In this document: in pieces, positions 40,308 to 53,571 of the stretch
Layout: the number at the start of each line of letters is the position of its first letter
Position numbering within the stretch: position 1 is the stretch's first letter
Origin: Chitinophagales bacterium
Lineage (GTDB): Bacteria > Bacteroidota > Bacteroidia > Chitinophagales > Chitinophagaceae
Assembly: GCA_015654595.1 (NCBI GenBank)
Contig: JAATGQ010000022.1
Coordinates: 1 to 53,571 of the forward strand
DNA: 53,571 nucleotides
Reading direction: 5' to 3'
Position numbers and translations under genes: made by a program
Notes under the pieces: model-generated
Told to the model about the DNA's origin: nothing
The model's input: only the letters and a program-made list of their open reading frames with translations
Database searches by the model: none

Positions 40308-42251
40308 ATGCCCATGCTTACAAGACATATGCTTTCGGATCAGCAGATGACCGTACAGGCCAGCACCGTTCTGAAGGTGCTTGGAAGATCGACCCTTTTC
40401 ATCCTCGATATTCTCCTTCGCGAGTCGGTACAGAATTCACTCGATGCTACTAATCTCTCGACAGGATTTATTACGTTTGAATTCGACATCCTGCCGCTGG
40501 CTTCGCACGACGAACTGGCGGCAAGGCTGGAATTTCTCCGGCAGGATGAGGATGACCAGCTTTTTACCAGGCTGCAAAGCCGGTTCAGACAGGGAGACCC
40601 TGTTTTGCTGACGCTGTCCGATAAAGGCACCACCGGTCTTTCGGGCCCGGTCAGGCGGGATGCACCAGAGTGGTCATCCTATGACGGACACAGAAACTTT
40701 GACAGTCTGGTTTATCAGCTGGGGAGGAATCACGGTGACTCAAAAGCGGGAGGATCCTATGGATTTGGCAAATCCATTCTTTATCGCCTGTCGCCAGCCG
40801 GAATCGTTCTTTTCTATTCCAGAAGCGTAGAGGGCGAAAGACTCGCTTTCAGTATGATTTCAGCGGAAGAAAACAAGATCAGACAAAATTATACCGGAAT
40901 TGCATGGTGGGGAGAAGTCTGCGAGTTCGATGGCCAACGCTACTCCGCGCCGGTAGAAGACCCCGAAAAAATCGGAGAAGTCTTGTCGGCACTAGGCCTG
41001 TCACACAAAAGATTACCTGAAGGAGAGACGGGAACGCTGATCGGGGTTATCGCTCCCCGGCTGCAATACCTGCTGAACACAGAAAGAGACTCACATGATG
41101 ACATTCCTGAGGTGCAGCAATCCGACACCGACAGCAAGATCCGACTTATCAAAAACGCCGTTGCCCAATCCGTCCAGAAATGGTACTGGCCTCGGATGAC
41201 GATTACCAATGAGGTCAAACCCGACGGGCTTTTAAAACCATTGCGATTCCTCAACTTTGGAGAAGAGATTCAGTTAGCTCCACAGTATGTCGCGATGGGC
41301 AGTCTACTGAAAGCTGCTGAAAACTATAACAACAACGACACGACATCGCTACCTGGTTGTGTCGTCGAAAGCATAAACCACAATTATGGATCGGTCATGC
41401 TGGGGACCCTGGCCTACCAGATCATCGGTCAAAAGGCCAGTATGGATCACCTGAACAAAATTGCGATGATCAGATGGCCCCGCATGGTGGTATTTGAGAT
41501 CCCTGTACAGGAAAGAGGCAACCGGTCTGTAGCAGCCTTGTTTCTGGTAAATTCAAAAGTCGAGGTCAGGCCCAACAGACACAGCACAGACTTCCAGGAA
41601 CTAGACAATGTTTTTAAGGATTGCGAATCAGCCACGCATTCGGAATGGAACTACCAGGGTATGGATCCTGACAAAAACTGGTTCAAGTCCTATGTCAAGG
41701 CTGCAAGAGAAAAGACGGTAGATGCATTACGAGTAGCGCTTAATCCAACTACCCCCAACACCACGGAAGCAGAATTTTCACCGTCGGCTAAGCTCCTTGG
41801 GCAGCTGTTACTCAGTTCCGGAGGAGGAGTCGTCCAGACCTTTACGGCAAATGGCAGCGGAGGTGGCGGTGGAAATGGGGCCGGAGGCAGACGCCCCACC
41901 TATCCCGGACTGGACATCCAGTCTCCCGTGTATCTGCCAGACGGCGATCTCCTTTTCGAAATCAACCTGACCAATATCACCATAGGAGACTATAAAATCG
42001 CTGTGCTGGCGAGAGGCGGATCCCAATCACTCGATCAGAGCAGCTGGAAGAAAAGACTTGGCAACGAATTCCCGTTTATCATCCGGACAGTAAAGCATGA
42101 CGGAACGCTGAGTATCCGGACAAGCGAAGAAGCAGAGCTGCTGTTTTCCTACGATGGGTCCGGGGATATTACTGCACCACTCATCGTAACTATACACCCG
42201 GTTAAAAAAGATGCATTGATATCGTTCCGCATTTCACCAATAAACGAATAA
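40308..42251 (+). CDS. second GHKL ATPase (HSP90-like ATP-binding protein)
   Basis: A 647-residue protein unrelated in detail to the left-wing ATPase but with the same fold motifs: LLRESVQNSLDA (Asn43, Asp46), LSDKGTTGLSG (Asp105, Gly107) and the G2 box GGSYGFGKSILYR (148-160). A glycine-rich linker (GSGGGGGNGAGG, near 520) separates a C-terminal beta-rich domain of about 120 residues. Such proteins lie next to DUF4420 nucleases in Z1-type defence clusters. The next gene starts one base after the stop, so the operon is tight. It probably acts as an ATP-gated clamp. Confidence 0.88.
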   Translation: MPMLTRHMLSDQQMTVQASTVLKVLGRSTLFILDILLRESVQNSLDATNLSTGFITFEFDILPLASHDELAARLEFLRQDEDDQLFTRLQSRFRQGDPVLLTLSDKGTTGLSGPVRRDAPEWSSYDGHRNFDSLVYQLGRNHGDSKAGGSYGFGKSILYRLSPAGIVLFYSRSVEGERLAFSMISAEENKIRQNYTGIAWWGEVCEFDGQRYSAPVEDPEKIGEVLSALGLSHKRLPEGETGTLIGVIAPRLQYLLNTERDSHDDIPEVQQSDTDSKIRLIKNAVAQSVQKWYWPRMTITNEVKPDGLLKPLRFLNFGEEIQLAPQYVAMGSLLKAAENYNNNDTTSLPGCVVESINHNYGSVMLGTLAYQIIGQKASMDHLNKIAMIRWPRMVVFEIPVQERGNRSVAALFLVNSKVEVRPNRHSTDFQELDNVFKDCESATHSEWNYQGMDPDKNWFKSYVKAAREKTVDALRVALNPTTPNTTEAEFSPSAKLLGQLLLSSGGGVVQTFTANGSGGGGGNGAGGRRPTYPGLDIQSPVYLPDGDLLFEINLTNITIGDYKIAVLARGGSQSLDQSSWKKRLGNEFPFIIRTVKHDGTLSIRTSEEAELLFSYDGSGDITAPLIVTIHPVKKDALISFRISPINE

Positions 42252-45902: not shown

Positions 45903-47121
45903 AATAGCCTTAAATATTATCTGTAAAGACGAAAGTCATGTCATAAATGATCTATTGACTTCCGTAAAGCCCGTAATCGATCTGATCGTAGCTGTTGACA
46001 CCGGCTCTACCGATAATACAATCGAGTTAATAAGGGAATTCGGTAAAACGCATTCGATCCCAACGACTGTATTCGAAAGACCTTTTGATAATTTCTGTAA
46101 TTCCAGAAATTATGCCCTCGACAAGCTGCTTGAGGTTGCCAGAGAACAAAACTGGAATCTACACGATTCCTGGGGATTGAGCATAGACTGTGACGAAACG
46201 CTTTTACTGTCCGAACGCTTTTCGAAAGATCAGCTCACAAAAGACTTATATGAGGTGATCGTGACAGAAGAAGGCATTTCATATAACAAAAGATTGATCT
46301 TCCGGCTCTCGATAGATTTCAGATGGGAAAGCCCGGTTCATGAATTAATAACCTGGAAAGACCCGGACGTAAAAACCGGCGTTGCCGAACACCTGTACAT
46401 TCATGCGCAACATACCGGCTCCTCCTGGAAGGGTGGATTAGAGAAAAAATATCTTAATTATGCCAGACTGCTCACGGCCTACATCGAGGAGGGCCATACG
46501 GATTTCAGGACCTTATACAATACCGCTCGTGCCTTTCTGGATGCCGCGGCCGATTGCCAGTCGCCGGAAAGACGCAGGGAACATAGCCTGACCGCCCAAA
46601 AATATCTGAGTCTGGCCACGCAGGTACAAGGCATATCCAAAGAGGAACGAATCCTGCTTTATCAAAGCACCGCCTCAAATATGCTGGAATTGGAAGAGCC
46701 TTGGAGCGACGTTCAGGAGATCCTTTTAAATGCCTATAATCTCCAGATGGTCCGGGGAGAAACAATCTCCATGATCATAGATCACTATATGGAAGAAAGA
46801 CATTGGAATACTGCCTATATATTCAGCTATTTTGCGGAGAAGAACTATAACGGGAAAAATCCCGCAGGAAAAATAGGCGGAAAAATATCGGCACGTCTAT
46901 ATCAATGGGAATTTCTCCTGCAACATACTATATGTTCGTACATGTCCGGCCATCGTCAGAATGCAAAACTTCTCAGAGACAAGTTAAAGGCATATCTGGA
47001 CAAACATTTCGATTCCCTGAAGACGATCGAAATACTAAAGATCCAATCCTCAAAGATCTCTACCTTAAAGATCAAATACTGGATTCAGCGGCTATTCTTT
47101 TCATCGCCCCGGTCTTTTTGA
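45895..47121 (+). CDS. family 2 glycosyltransferase with C-terminal helical repeats
   Basis: A 408-residue protein. The N-terminal GT2 domain starts IALNIICKDESHVINDLLTS and has LIVAVDTGSTDNTIELIREF, the nucleotide-sugar binding region, and WGLSIDCDETLLL as the DxD-like metal site. The C-terminal 200 residues are TPR-like helices. This arrangement is that of glycosyltransferases that modify proteins or peptides. The companion gene overlaps by eight bases and duplicates the repeat domain. The gene ends about 100 bases before the predicted tracrRNA promoter. Confidence 0.88.
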   Translation: MIRIALNIICKDESHVINDLLTSVKPVIDLIVAVDTGSTDNTIELIREFGKTHSIPTTVFERPFDNFCNSRNYALDKLLEVAREQNWNLHDSWGLSIDCDETLLLSERFSKDQLTKDLYEVIVTEEGISYNKRLIFRLSIDFRWESPVHELITWKDPDVKTGVAEHLYIHAQHTGSSWKGGLEKKYLNYARLLTAYIEEGHTDFRTLYNTARAFLDAAADCQSPERRREHSLTAQKYLSLATQVQGISKEERILLYQSTASNMLELEEPWSDVQEILLNAYNLQMVRGETISMIIDHYMEERHWNTAYIFSYFAEKNYNGKNPAGKIGGKISARLYQWEFLLQHTICSYMSGHRQNAKLLRDKLKAYLDKHFDSLKTIEILKIQSSKISTLKIKYWIQRLFFSSPRSF

Positions 47122-47216
47122 CCAAGCACCCCTTTGATCGTCTTTATGACCTGCTTCACGATCGCATCACTGGCTTTAGGAGCCGAAATTCAAGGCTTGT
47201 TTTGCCTTCGGCTCGC

Positions 47217-47248
47217 TTGACATGAATATTTTTTTACTTTTTTAGATA
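47217..47248 (+). promoter_or_regulatory. possible tracrRNA promoter
   Basis: TTGACA at 47217-47222 and TAGATA at 47243-47248 with a 20-base gap, in a T-rich stretch. This would start a transcript near 47255, shortly before the anti-repeat. In Bacteroidota the usual -7 element is TAnnTTTG, and TACTTTTT at 47235 is a near match, so the exact element is uncertain. Confidence 0.35.
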
Positions 47249-47254
47249 AAAATT

Positions 47255-47345
47255 TTACTTTTACATCATTGAAAGCTTATCACAATAAGGCTATAAGCCG
47301 AAGATAATTCTCGAGCCCTGCGTATTCCGTGGGGTTCTTTTTTTT
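47255..47345 (+). ncRNA. tracrRNA
   Basis: The anti-repeat is at 47268-47286 (ATTGAAAGCTTATCACAAT). It pairs with the first 19 bases of the repeat read from the minus strand at 17 of 19 positions (one G-U), with a two-base U/U bulge at repeat positions 9-10, the usual tracrRNA:crRNA shape. A nexus-like hairpin GGCT-ATA-AGCC follows at 47289-47299, as in other tracrRNAs. It ends in a hairpin at 47313-47337 (ten pairs, three of them G-U) and eight T (47338-47345). All three parts in the right order, 330 bases before cas9, make this identification strong. The 5' end is estimated. It reads in the same direction as cas9. Confidence 0.85.
47313..47345 (+). terminator. Rho-independent terminator of the tracrRNA
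   Basis: Stem GAGCCCTGCG/CGTGGGGTTC with three G-U pairs and a five-base loop, then eight T. It separates the tracrRNA from the cas9 transcript, so cas9 needs its own promoter downstream. Confidence 0.85.
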
Positions 47346-47397
47346 AACCCCTTGTTGGTTCAATAAACTTCGCCTTTATTCATTATGATTAAAAAAA

Positions 47398-47443
47398 TAT
47401 AATCGTAGGATAGTTAAATTCTACATTCTACAGTAAATATAAT
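47398..47443 (+). promoter_or_regulatory. presumed cas9 promoter region with an 11-base match to the crRNA-like guide
   Basis: Two TATAAT boxes (47398-47403 and 47438-47443), each preceded by AAA, lie in the AT-rich part between the tracrRNA terminator and cas9. No good TTG element is found at the right distance, so the promoter assignment is tentative. The 11 bases GTAGGATAGTT at 47405-47415 start two bases after the first TATAAT, around the expected start point. They are identical to the 11 bases before the half-repeat at 47590-47600. The bases after the match (AAATTCTACA) would be the PAM-side flank. Confidence 0.45.
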
Positions 47444-47546
47444 TAGAGCGTGTTCCTGCCATCATATACAGGATAAGTTTTCCAGGAAACCTGGCACAGG
47501 TTGGGTCTCATAAGCCCTATACCTAACACGCCGCATGCTTGTGCAC

Positions 47547-47641
47547 AATCAGGAAAGCAAAAGCTTTATTCCCTGGCAATTATTACCAGGTAGGATAGTT
47601 GTTGTGATTTGCTTTCACTTCACATTGCTTTCCTGATTTTT
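47547..47641 (+). promoter_or_regulatory. inverted repeat and U-tract in the cas9 leader (possible attenuator)
   Basis: A perfect 14-bp inverted repeat (AATCAGGAAAGCAA at 47547-47560, TTGCTTTCCTGATT at 47625-47638) encloses 64 bases and ends in a run of T (47637-47641). The 5' arm contains GAAAGCAAA (47553-47561), which can pair instead with TTTGCTTTC in the half-repeat (47608-47616). The two pairings exclude each other, as in an attenuator. A smaller hairpin (CCTGG-CCAGG, 47572-47590) lies inside. The cas9 start codon follows at 47672. Confidence 0.55.
47571..47620 (+). ncRNA. crRNA-like element (spacer-like stretch plus half-repeat)
   Basis: GTTGTGATTTGCTTTCACTT (47601-47620) is identical to the first 20 bases of the terminal repeat of the array read in crRNA sense, and to the first 17 bases of the consensus repeat. 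The rest of the 47-base repeat is absent. It stands on the plus strand, the strand of tracrRNA and cas9, with no other repeat near. The 30 bases before it occupy the spacer position, and their last 11 bases (47590-47600), the seed of a Cas9 guide, recur exactly at 47405-47415. The half-repeat is the part that pairs with tracrRNA. The element thus has all that is needed for a Cas9 guide RNA; expression is inferred. An alternative reading is an anti-repeat on the minus strand. Confidence 0.6.
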
Positions 47642-47671
47642 AAACTTTATTAACCAAACCCCAATTGCCGT

Positions 47672-50600
47672 ATGAACAAAATCCTTGGTCTGGATCTTGG
47701 CACCAACTCTATTGGCTGGGCGATCAGAGATACCAGCGTTTCTGACAATCAAATCGTTGACAAAGGCGTGCTCACCTTTGAGAAAGGTGTAGGCGAAGGA
47801 AAATCCGGAGAATACCCCCTCGTTCAAAAGCGGACCGAGAGCCGGTCGAAAAGACGTAATTACCAGGCCGAGAAATATCGCAAATGGGCGCTATTACAAG
47901 CCTTGATCAGTCGAGGCATGTGTCCCTTATCTCTTTCGGAACTCGATGAATGGCGCAAATATACCAAGGGGTCTCCACGCAAGTATCCTCAATCAACAGC
48001 CTTTACCCAATGGCTGCACTATGATTTTGACGGGGACGGAGTGACGGACTATGAGCGGCTTGGCTTTAGCAAGCACGAGAATCATTATCTGTTCCGGATG
48101 CTAGCCGCCAGCGAAAAGCCGGAACATAAAGTCATTTTTACAGAGAACCCTCTGCTCCTGGGCAGAGTCCTCTATCATATGGTACAGCGCAGGGGTTTCC
48201 GAGGTCGGGACGAAGAAGAATCTAAAACCATCATGCAGGGCGCTAAGGACGGCAGCACCGTCGGCGTCGATGCGATTGCCCCCTATCTGGATCGATACAA
48301 AACTCTGGGGTCGGCCCTATATTTTCTCCACAAGGAAAAAGGGGAAAAAATCAGACGGCGATACAATTTACGTTCGGACTATGAACAGGAATTGAAGGTC
48401 ATCTGCGAAGTTCAAGGCATCGAAGACGCGCTTTACAAACAATTCTGGAAAGCCATTATCTGGCAACGACCGCTCAGATCGCAGAAAGGCCTGGTCGGCG
48501 TCTGCACATTTGAATCGAATAAGACACGCTGTCCCGTGAGTCATCCTTTTTATGAGGAGTTCAGAATATGGAGGGAAATCAATGATCTAAAGATAGTTTT
48601 TCCCGACGACGACAATCGCGAACAGCTGATCGCTGAAAAGGTCTATCCCCTCTTTTATGTCGCTTCACGGGATTTTAAATTAAAGTCAATTGCAACTACC
48701 CTTCAAAAGATTAACGGGAAGATCACCTCTTTAAAAGCGACGGATAAGGATCCGGAAAGGGAAAAATACAAACTGGAGAATACAAAATTGATTTCGGCAG
48801 GGTTGCTCTATCAACTGTCGGAGCTTCTGGGCGAAAAATGGAAAGAAAACCATGGTTGGCAGGAAGCGCTAGAGAATAAGCCCAAATCCTGCTCCTACTC
48901 CGTCGAAGATATCTGGCACGTTCTATTTACTTTTGATAGCCGCGAAAAGCTACGCTCTTTTGCTGTCGAAAAGCTGCACTTAGACGACGAAGCTGCAGAA
49001 AAGTTTTCGAAGTTAAAGCTGGCGCAAGGTTACGCTCCGCTAAGCCTCTCCGCCATCAAGAAAATTCTACCTTATTTGCGGCAAGGTTATCAGTATAGTC
49101 ATGCTGTATACCTGGCGAATGTCCACAAAGTATTAGGTGAAACTCATCTTAGCAGCGACAAAGCAAAAGCCATCGCAGAGACCATTAAATCGATATTTAC
49201 GCAGTCATCAGACGAGAAACTTTTAATAGCTGCTGTCAATGGACTGATCAGCGACCAACTCAATAGCGATACTCGTTTTGGTATGGATCCGTCCTATCAG
49301 CTCGATAAAGACGATGCATCCGATATAAACAGGAAACTTGAGGAAGTATTCGGAACAAGATCCTGGTCAGAAAAGAGTGACGATGCGAAACACCAGGCCT
49401 ATGACTTCGTCGCCCGACATTATCTTGCCTTTCTTCAAAAGCCTATACAGTATACAAAAACGGACCTGTTCCTGAAATCTCCCCGCCAGCATGACAGAAT
49501 TTTCACCTATCTGCAGGAGACCTACGGCGTTCCCTCTGATCGTAAGGTCTTGCTTTGGCATCCTTCCGAACAGGAAACTTATCCGAAGGCCAAACCGGTC
49601 AATGGAATACCCCAGCTGGGCTCACCTGTGCCCATCAGCCGCGGATTTAAAAATCCTATGGCGCTGAAGACGCTCCATAAGTTAAAGCAGCTGATCAATC
49701 ATCTTCTCCGGTCTGGAAAAATTGACGAAGACACGAGGATTGTCGTTGAAATCGCAAGGGAGCTAAATGACGCCAACAAAAGAAAAGCAATAGAAAAATG
49801 GCAACGAGACCGGGAAAAGCAAAATGAGGAATATAGAGCCCGAATAAAGGAACTCAATGACGAATACCAGCTTGACCTTGACATTTACAACAAGAACCTG
49901 ATTGATAAATACAGGCTTTGGGTCGAGCAAAAAGGGCAATGTCTTTACACAGGAGAAGTCATCAACTGTAAGGACTTGTTCGACGGCACAAAGTATGACT
50001 TTGAACATACTATACCTGCCAGCATCAGCTTTGACAGTGAGTTGAAGAATCTCACCATTGCCAACAGCAAGTACAACAGGGAAACAAAGGGAAATAAGTT
50101 TCCATCACAGCTGCCCAATTATGAACAGTCGATGCTTGGCTTTGGAGCAATTACTTCTAATATTCAGTTCCTCAGCGACGAGGTGGGACGTCTCGAAGCT
50201 CTTTATGAGGAATGGTCGAACAAAGCAAAATTTGCATCCACAAAGGATATAAAAGACGCTTGTATTCAGCGCAAGCACATTATTCGTATGGACCTGGACT
50301 ATTGGCGCTATAAGCTCCATACGTTTACGCTTAAAGAATATAAGGCGGGCTGGCGTAACAGTCAGCTAAAGGACACGCAGATAGTGACAAAATACGCGCT
50401 GCCCTATCTAAAGACTGTTTTCGAAAAAGTGGAGGTAGAAAAGGGCTCGGTAGTTTCGGATTTTAGAAAGATCTATAAGATAAATCCCCCTAACGAAACA
50501 AAAGACCGCACTTCTCACAGCCATCATGCCAAAGACGCCGCCGTGCTTACTCTCATACCTCCAGCGTCGATCCGGGACAAAATATTACTCAGATGGAACC

Positions 50601-51706
50601 AGGCCAAAGACCAGCAGATTTCGATTCATGAACCGGTACGCGACTGGAAGACTTTCGATCCTCGTTATATTCTCTCCATAGAAGACGAGGTACTAATCAA
50701 TTTTCAGGCACAAAACAGAACGCTGACACCTACGCAGAAGAATGTCCGGAAAAGAGGGCGGCAGCAATATGTAAAGGTCAGTGGAGCTGACGGCCATCTT
50801 AGATTTAAATTAGACGATAAGGGAAACCGTATTCCGTTAAAGGCCCAGGGTGACTCTATCCGTGGACAGCTTCATAAAGAAAGCATGTTTGGAGTAATTG
50901 ACCGGGCCGGAGAAAAATGGCTGGTAGAACGGTACCCTATTTCGCAATTTACAAGCATCAATGACTGTCGGAATATCGTGGATGACGCCGTCAGAAAGAT
51001 TGTCGAGGGCGAACTTTCGCGAAGAATGGCAGCCGGCGAATCTTTTGAAAAAGCAAAATATGCAGAGTTCAAGTTTCCATCCGGTAGGGTTATTAAAAAA
51101 GTTCGTTGTCGTGTTGCAGCCGGCAGGGGATATCTTACGCCTGAAAAGGCCGTAGAAGTATCCCGTCGCAGCCACCTATCCCGCCACGATTACAAGCGGG
51201 TAACGTACGCTCAAAACGACGAAAACACGCTTTGCCTTTATTATGAAAACGGATCAGACAGAGGGTTTCGCATCGTCGGGCTATTCGAACTGGCTCGACT
51301 AAAGGCCCGCCGTTTTAGTGATATTGCAGCAGAGAAATATTATCAAACTTTAGAGGTCGGTAAAGGAAAGAATAAAAAGGAGTTGCCGCTGGCTCATATT
51401 ATTACGGTTGGATTGAAGGCTATTATCTGGAAGGAAGACAAAGAAGAGCTAAAAGATCTCTCGCAGCAAGATCTTTTTAAGCGGGTATACAGAATTTTCA
51501 AATTTAATGAGCGTCCCTCCCCCTATGTTTACATGCAGCATCATATGGAAGCGAGACCAGATGGCGAACTGGGCAATGGAGCTAGTGAGATCAATTTAAC
51601 CGAGTACCAACCCCGGCTTTCACTAAGCGGGGGGAATTTTCAATGCGCGTTGGAAGGCAGAGATTTTACGGTTTCCCTTGATGGAAGAATCGAATTGAAA
51701 TTTTAA
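47672..51706 (+). CDS. cas9: Cas9 endonuclease, type II-C
   Basis: A 1344-residue Cas9, in the size class of Bacteroidota type II-C enzymes. RuvC-I is ILGLDLGTNSIGWAI (Asp8), the bridge helix KRTESRSKRRNYQAEKYRKW (52-71), RuvC-II RIVVEIARELND (Glu near 693), the HNH core CLYTGEVINC with YDFEHTIPAS (His near 779) and NSKYNRETKGNKFP, and RuvC-III HSHHAKDAAV (Asp near 955). All catalytic residues are present, so the enzyme should be active. The C-terminal PAM-interacting domain does not reveal its PAM. cas1 follows after 54 bases. The leader of 320 bases between the tracrRNA terminator and the start contains a crRNA-like element and an inverted repeat. Confidence 0.98.
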   Translation: MNKILGLDLGTNSIGWAIRDTSVSDNQIVDKGVLTFEKGVGEGKSGEYPLVQKRTESRSKRRNYQAEKYRKWALLQALISRGMCPLSLSELDEWRKYTKGSPRKYPQSTAFTQWLHYDFDGDGVTDYERLGFSKHENHYLFRMLAASEKPEHKVIFTENPLLLGRVLYHMVQRRGFRGRDEEESKTIMQGAKDGSTVGVDAIAPYLDRYKTLGSALYFLHKEKGEKIRRRYNLRSDYEQELKVICEVQGIEDALYKQFWKAIIWQRPLRSQKGLVGVCTFESNKTRCPVSHPFYEEFRIWREINDLKIVFPDDDNREQLIAEKVYPLFYVASRDFKLKSIATTLQKINGKITSLKATDKDPEREKYKLENTKLISAGLLYQLSELLGEKWKENHGWQEALENKPKSCSYSVEDIWHVLFTFDSREKLRSFAVEKLHLDDEAAEKFSKLKLAQGYAPLSLSAIKKILPYLRQGYQYSHAVYLANVHKVLGETHLSSDKAKAIAETIKSIFTQSSDEKLLIAAVNGLISDQLNSDTRFGMDPSYQLDKDDASDINRKLEEVFGTRSWSEKSDDAKHQAYDFVARHYLAFLQKPIQYTKTDLFLKSPRQHDRIFTYLQETYGVPSDRKVLLWHPSEQETYPKAKPVNGIPQLGSPVPISRGFKNPMALKTLHKLKQLINHLLRSGKIDEDTRIVVEIARELNDANKRKAIEKWQRDREKQNEEYRARIKELNDEYQLDLDIYNKNLIDKYRLWVEQKGQCLYTGEVINCKDLFDGTKYDFEHTIPASISFDSELKNLTIANSKYNRETKGNKFPSQLPNYEQSMLGFGAITSNIQFLSDEVGRLEALYEEWSNKAKFASTKDIKDACIQRKHIIRMDLDYWRYKLHTFTLKEYKAGWRNSQLKDTQIVTKYALPYLKTVFEKVEVEKGSVVSDFRKIYKINPPNETKDRTSHSHHAKDAAVLTLIPPASIRDKILLRWNQAKDQQISIHEPVRDWKTFDPRYILSIEDEVLINFQAQNRTLTPTQKNVRKRGRQQYVKVSGADGHLRFKLDDKGNRIPLKAQGDSIRGQLHKESMFGVIDRAGEKWLVERYPISQFTSINDCRNIVDDAVRKIVEGELSRRMAAGESFEKAKYAEFKFPSGRVIKKVRCRVAAGRGYLTPEKAVEVSRRSHLSRHDYKRVTYAQNDENTLCLYYENGSDRGFRIVGLFELARLKARRFSDIAAEKYYQTLEVGKGKNKKELPLAHIITVGLKAIIWKEDKEELKDLSQQDLFKRVYRIFKFNERPSPYVYMQHHMEARPDGELGNGASEINLTEYQPRLSLSGGNFQCALEGRDFTVSLDGRIELKF

Positions 51707-51760
51707 CTTTATTCAATAAACATATAACCTATTCGTTTTATGAAGACCTAAATCCATTCT

Positions 51761-53012
<1,252 letters not shown>

Positions 53013-53112: not shown

Positions 53113-53544
53113 GTTGTGTCGGATCGAAGTTACCGATAAAATTGAAAGCAAATCACAACATAATAGCGCACCCAAAAAACCAGAAGAGAGTTGTGTCGGA
53201 TCGAAGTTACCGATAAAATTGAAAGCAAATCACAACCTGGTAGTGTGTGGCAGGTGAATAACGGAGGTTGTGTCGGATCGAAGTTACCGATAAAATTGAA
53301 AGCAAATCACAACACCTAACGGTGTCTGTCGATTTCGGCATGTGTTGTGTCGGATCGAAGTTACCGATAAAATTGAAAGCAAATCACAACCGCGATTTTG
53401 TGTATGTCGCTTTCGTTTTGGTTGTGTCGGATCGAAGTTACCGATAAAATTGAAAGCAAATCACAACAAGCGGACCTATCTTGCCTTAAGCGTTTGCGTT
53501 GGGTCGGATCGAAGTTACCGATAAAAGTGAAAGCAAATCACAAC
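53113..53544 (-). CRISPR. type II-C CRISPR array, six 47-nt repeats and five 30-nt spacers (may continue beyond window)
   Basis: Repeats start at 53113, 53190, 53267, 53344, 53421 and 53498, each 47 bases. All five spacers are 30 bases. On the plus strand the repeat begins GTTGTGTCGGATCG and ends AAAGCAAATCACAAC; in crRNA sense (minus strand) it begins GTTGTGATTTGCTTTCA, the common start of Bacteroidota II-C repeats, and its ends are inverted (GTTGTG/CACAAC). The first five repeats are identical; the sixth differs at two bases (position 5 and 31 of the plus-strand repeat), which marks the old end of an array. The anti-repeat of the tracrRNA pairs only with the minus-strand reading, so crRNAs are made leftward, toward cas2. 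TAACTTCG in each repeat is one base away from the Bacteroidota -7 element TAnnTTTG and might allow internal transcription starts. The window ends 27 bases after the sixth repeat. Confidence 0.97.
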
Positions 53545-53571
53545 CAAAGAAGCTCGATTCTAATAGCACAA

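Follow-up and report, generated by a model that had tools for sequence, protein, structure and literature searches.

Upstream of cas9 in a Chitinophagales bacterium lies a solitary CRISPR half repeat whose preceding 11 nt recur exactly at a candidate target on the same strand, and in five related loci a comparable guide and half repeat are joined to the 5' side of the tracrRNA. On balance we favour, with moderate confidence, the explanation that an ectopic CRISPR repeat has turned into a regulatory guide for Cas9, fused to the tracrRNA in the relatives and split from it in the window (i.e. the whole stretch of 53,571 nt analysed here). Comparison of the loci makes autorepression of Cas9 well supported for the five relatives and likely but unproven for the window.

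By its gene content the window locus is II-C-like: cas9, cas1 and cas2 adjoin an array, and csn2 and cas4 are absent, as judged within the window from the ORFs at 47672-53012 and their families. Its features are the following.

About 47267 to 47345, plus strand: tracrRNA with anti-repeat, nexus AAGGCTATAAGCCGAAGA, terminator hairpin and T run, identified by a core identical to that of the relatives and by its fold
47398 to 47403, plus strand: TATAAT, candidate promoter element, contained in no listed sigma-70-type site
47405 to 47415, plus strand: candidate target GTAGGATAGTT, an exact copy of the guide
47416 to 47425, plus strand: AAATTCTACA, adjoining the target on its 3' side at the PAM position, not NNNNCC
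47547 to 47560, plus strand: left arm (14 bp) of an inverted repeat without mismatches that surrounds guide and half repeat
47590 to 47600, plus strand: spacer-like guide GTAGGATAGTT, directly preceding the half repeat
47601 to 47620, plus strand: solitary half repeat GTTGTGATTTGCTTTCACTT in crRNA sense, with the letters of the array repeat and not those of the anti-repeat
47625 to 47638, plus strand: right arm (14 bp) of the inverted repeat, followed by TTT
47672 to 51706, plus strand: cas9 (1344 aa, TIGR01865)
51761 to 52657, plus strand: cas1 (TIGR03639)
52668 to 53012, plus strand: cas2 (TIGR01573)
53113 to 53571, minus strand: CRISPR array extending to the contig end, with six repeats here and the crRNA sense on the minus strand

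The array repeat is 47 nt long, and contig C114 also terminates in it, with degenerate copies. One variant repeat (53498-53544, GTTGGG..., AAAAGTGAAAGC) has an end identical to the half repeat, whereas the five remaining repeats of the window differ there. The tracrRNA contains a terminator-like stem at 47313-47337, and an Rfam scan of 47100-47700 returned a single, sub-threshold match, to Phe_leader, overlying it. Elsewhere in the window, a 647-aa protein (40308-42251) partially matches PADLOC PDC-M33A (7e-11) and is a candidate defence protein; the two genes after it have no family matches.

The half repeat, which the earlier note had described as solitary, on the plus strand and in crRNA orientation, is complementary at 20/20 positions to the copy of the repeat at 53525-53544; for the remaining window copies the figure is 95%. 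The same note had read from the letters that the 11 bases before it recur at 47405-47415, that the match ends there, and that the copy starts two bases past the TATAAT; all this is borne out, and the letters on both sides of the match differ between the two places. A match of 11 to the guide in the rest of 47348-47671 (both strands) was reached in one of 20,000 dinucleotide shuffles (P = 5e-5), near the earlier estimate of about once in ten thousand. The guide 11-mer occurs five times in the 6.03-Mb genome of the organism. The three occurrences outside the locus pair could be taken as the main targets of an scaRNA-like RNA acting elsewhere in the genome; simple counting, however, predicts about three, while the local match is unlikely to be accidental and the same relation is met again in relatives, so we regard such distant action as very improbable.

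Direct copies of 11 bp that border a compact, structured stretch might also be a target-site duplication left by an inserted element of 174 bp (47416-47589). No terminal inverted repeat was seen by eye at its ends, only short matches to it were found elsewhere in the same genome (up to 29 nt) and in 8 of the other 32 genomes of the genus, and an end falling exactly at the repeat would need an accident; this origin seems improbable to us. The region 47405-47671 folds with a z of -3.3, a strongly structured segment (GCGTGTT...AACACGC) lies at 47448-47535 between target and guide, and in the predicted fold of the leader RNA part of the guide and half repeat is paired.

The predicted duplex of the half repeat with the tracrRNA of its own locus (-20.0 kcal/mol) nearly equals that of the array repeat (-21.9), whereas 1000 shuffles gave a mean of -6.3 and a lowest value of -18.1. 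This pairing agrees with one part of the earlier proposal, in which a crRNA-like RNA joins the tracrRNA and would then let Cas9 repress its own gene. It might be argued that the half repeat is instead what remains of the anti-repeat of an earlier, divergently oriented tracrRNA, next to an accidental 11-base match, as the anti-repeat of the relatives sits similarly far before cas9 and looks repeat-like on the plus strand; the half repeat, however, shares GTTGTGATTTG with the array repeat, where the reverse complement of the anti-repeat reads ATTGTGATAAG, and GCCTT does not stand ahead of it, which leaves this idea with hardly any credibility.

The comparison with relatives comprised a pattern survey of 69 loci, duplicates included, in 67 of which the N-terminus of Cas9 was located. 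The tracrRNA core is divergent from cas9 in 60/67 loci and absent by the pattern used in 6/67, and the window is the sole locus of the 67 with the core on the cas9 strand. In six loci with Cas9 proteins 50-59% identical to that of the window, the tracrRNA lies shortly before the ATG and runs opposite to cas9, without a half repeat, and the closest relatives by Cas9 sequence (L040-L045) lack the element. In nine loci (L052, L055, L119, L129, L130, L135, L163, L164 and L174) the core lies at least 200 nt before cas9, and five of these (L052, L055, L119, L130 and L135) have a half repeat with a guide 5' of the tracrRNA; L129 has kept the long gap with no recognisable half repeat. L163 has a second tracrRNA core nearer to cas9, and L174 has upstream of cas9 a second anti-repeat, then AAGGTCC.

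In all five loci the half repeat lies directly 5' of the tracrRNA and on its strand, divergent from cas9, and the guides of 10-11 nt recur in their own cas9 upstream regions, 39-61 nt ahead of the ATG on the coding strand (5/5). Each of the five targets is flanked by NNNNCC, i.e. by CC at positions 5-6; the background of CC, taken over the 250 nt upstream of each of the five ATGs, is 30/1245 positions. The match to the own target has a shuffle P of 6e-4 in L052, 2.9e-3 in L055, 5e-5 in L119 and 1.4e-3 in L130, and was reached in 0/20,000 shuffles in L135. Against the regions of other loci the guides match at most 8 nt, save for L119 and L135, which have one guide in common. The comparison of cas9 upstream regions that the earlier note had proposed shows guides varying across five loci, each fitting its own target, and returned no close relative of the window with the window's arrangement. 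The autorepression reading is strengthened by these same-group relatives, in which guide, half repeat and own-target match occur together; the free crRNA form is not, for in all five the RNA would be a single guide fused to a tracrRNA divergent from cas9.

The predicted folds of all five RNAs have a free 10-nt guide, a helix of half repeat and anti-repeat and two hairpins, nexus and terminator, from which the RNAs are predicted to be natural single-guide RNAs. The aligned helix is 92.7% paired, vs 29-55% after a shift of 1-3 columns. Two of its pairs vary on both sides, as happens in 137/500 shuffles, and its covariation score was reached by 19/500, controls that are modest with n=5 sequences. 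L119, L130 and L135 have in common a stretch TCCAAAAC between tracrRNA and cas9; read in the sense of the tracrRNA it precedes the guide, and in L130 it sits within a hairpin. A small CRISPR-like array in Riemerella phage vB_RanS_CRP19 (OR089151.1; L205, about 1394-1660) has repeats ending in TTTTTGAAAGCAATTCACAAC, similar to that of L055, a locus of a Salegentibacter strain, and two identical spacers.

A hexamer GTTGT[AG] adjoining a repeated seed of at least 9 nt was found in 12/114 regions, and permuted hexamers gave 1-7/114; short matches by themselves therefore mean little, and a chance match next to a stray, silent repeat fragment might be suspected in the window as well. We nevertheless give this hardly any weight, since the 11-nt match of the window has a P of 5e-5 and five cases that look independent agree in geometry and flank. 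Retained from the 12 regions were the window (L009), L052, L055, L119, L130 and L135. Set aside were L050, L054, L124 and L026, where the letters after the seed are not repeat-like, L018, repeat-like with a seed of 9 nt only, and L076, repeat-like with 12 nt that are AT-only (shuffle P 0.013). Among 51 loci with a detected array (a set without L119, L130, L135 and the window), only L052, L055 and L076 have a half repeat in crRNA sense ahead of cas9, and the remaining matches resemble the reverse complement of the anti-repeat. Upstream of cas9 in L076 (Confluentibacter lentus), the repeat-like GTTGTGGCTTGATAGAG is preceded by a 12-nt AT-only repeat of ATTAAATATAAA and followed by a terminator-like hairpin, possibly a separate crRNA-like RNA; L164, on a contig of equal length (669655), is apparently the same contig.

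Wider searches yielded no relative on contigs with the single Cas9 protein, and with a Cas9 alignment (A1) 80 places were kept of the 510 confirmed among the matches listed; Cas9 searches gave 14 weak matches in plasmids and hits in 2/33 genomes of the genus, the window's own included. The pattern of half repeat plus tracrRNA was found in 2/395 genomes of the class and in none of the viral contigs, and searches with tracrRNA-core patterns gave 17/394, 26/388, 6/59, 5/59 and 1/201. In the Cas9 tree the window stands beside L040/L041 (support 0.64), with L135 and the pair L052/L055 nearby, and the carriers of the element are scattered; sequence data could thus address whether self-control was repeatedly gained or repeatedly lost.

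The 'presumed cas9 promoter' that had been placed at the window target was not recovered, as a sigma-70-type scan gave three sites in 47150-47700, none with this TATAAT. The -7 motif of Bacteroidota is TAnnTTTG, and no good instance was found just downstream of the target or before the guide. Ahead of the guides, equal or better promoter-motif scores occur at 30-87% of local positions, so that a motif there is not evidence.

The target in the window is flanked by AAATTC, vs NNNNCC in the five relatives. In its PAM-interacting part the window Cas9 shares 45-56% identity with L040, L041, L042, L045, L050 and L053, 34% with L052 and L055, 27% with L130 (L184) and 24%, over 141 residues, with the truncated sequence of L135 (L183), the Cas9 of L119 and L135 being incomplete at contig ends; by these identities the window domain is of another class than that of the NNNNCC relatives compared. 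PAMs of II-C Cas9 vary among close orthologs, according to the portions available of two reports (PMC9433092, PMC8482600). With such variation and a different PAM-interacting domain, the AAATTC flank taken by itself counts neither for nor against. To derive a PAM, the arrays of seven relatives and of the window were compared with phages, which gave weak or no matches, and two window spacers had no match in viral contigs.

The serious rival is an ancestral working guide followed by a move of the tracrRNA to the other strand, with the guide and target that are left in the window now non-functional. It would accommodate the flank other than NNNNCC, the lack of a recognised promoter, the loss or original absence of the element in several relatives and the gap retained without a half repeat in L129; against decay stand the 11/11 guide letters and 17/17 leading repeat letters that are intact, and a pairing with the tracrRNA nearly equal to that of the array repeat. 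We consider such a relic unlikely, with a real chance of being right.

Under the favoured explanation of a regulatory guide, the single-guide RNA of the five relatives would take Cas9 to the region just ahead of cas9, where a pairing of 10-11 nt, too short for cutting, would let it repress its own gene; binding without cutting at 11 nt is suggested by analogy with tracr-L and scaRNA. In the window the parts would be split: the tracrRNA is encoded by itself, on the strand of cas9, and 47590-47620 would give a crRNA-like RNA, perhaps freed from a transcript running into cas9, as its position suggests, which would pair with the tracrRNA and send Cas9 to 47405-47415. From the sequences, matches, geometry and predicted folds observed here we infer transcription, processing, Cas9 binding and repression. 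The window agrees with the five loci in guide length, adjacency of the half repeat and polarity of the target and departs from them in tracrRNA strand, unfused guide, target distance (257-267 nt upstream of the ATG) and flank, so that it looks like a derived, two-RNA version of their arrangement. The explanation is favoured by the improbable match and the repeat-type half repeat of the window, and by the own-target matches, common geometry, CC flank and single-guide folds of the five. Points against it are the flank, the far target, the lack of a recognised promoter or good -7 motif and the partly paired guide in the window, L040-L045 and L129 without the element, and the modest covariation controls. 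Tentatively, and with somewhat less confidence, we suggest that II-C Bacteroidota may have a scattered class of Cas9 autorepression guides of their own, mostly single-guide, of which the window would be a split form with the guide in the cas9 leader. As this guide lies within the leader, a transcript into cas9 would carry the means of silencing its own source.

If this is true, self-repression of Cas9 by a short natural guide extends beyond type II-A. The five relatives would then provide candidate natural single-guide RNAs for II-C-like Cas9s, their flanks point to NNNNCC as a PAM with no protospacer known, and the guide-target pairs can be tested directly via matching changes. No description of cas9-directed guides in II-C Bacteroidota was found in the open literature searched, as far as its accessible text goes (including PMC11417352, PMC10013973, PMC6199352 and PMC12609912; subscription papers and preprints were outside the scope).

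Among known systems, the five relatives share their fused guide-repeat-tracrRNA layout with tracr-L, the long-form tracrRNA of type II-A Streptococcus, whereas they are II-C-like Bacteroidota loci known from sequence. Workman et al. reportedly described tracr-L in 2021 as a natural single guide. Its short guide to the cas promoter, of 11 nt (PMC8616872) or 9 bp (PMC8730458), leads to autorepression of Cas9 according to the available parts of these papers, the first of which states there that tracr-L is absent from other subtypes. In the window, unlike tracr-L, guide and tracrRNA are separate, and the tracrRNA has no half repeat on its 5' side (best match 8/12); a match of about 11 nt is present and a promoter at the target is not recognised. 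CreR RNAs, which are crRNA-like regulators in type I and V-A systems, are ectopic, have a limited match to a cas promoter and mediate autorepression (PMC12737573, in the part available); they work with Cascade and Cas12a, whereas the effector in the window is Cas9. Closest in layout to the window is scaRNA, a separate RNA with a repeat-derived part and a short guide. In Francisella (II-B) its diverged repeat pairs with the tracrRNA and its 15-bp guide is directed to lipoprotein genes (PMC8730458), and in Neisseria meningitidis (II-C) it acts on efeO mRNA by direct RNA action (PMC13431127), both as given in the accessible portions; in the window the pairing is predicted, and the candidate target lies upstream of cas9 itself.
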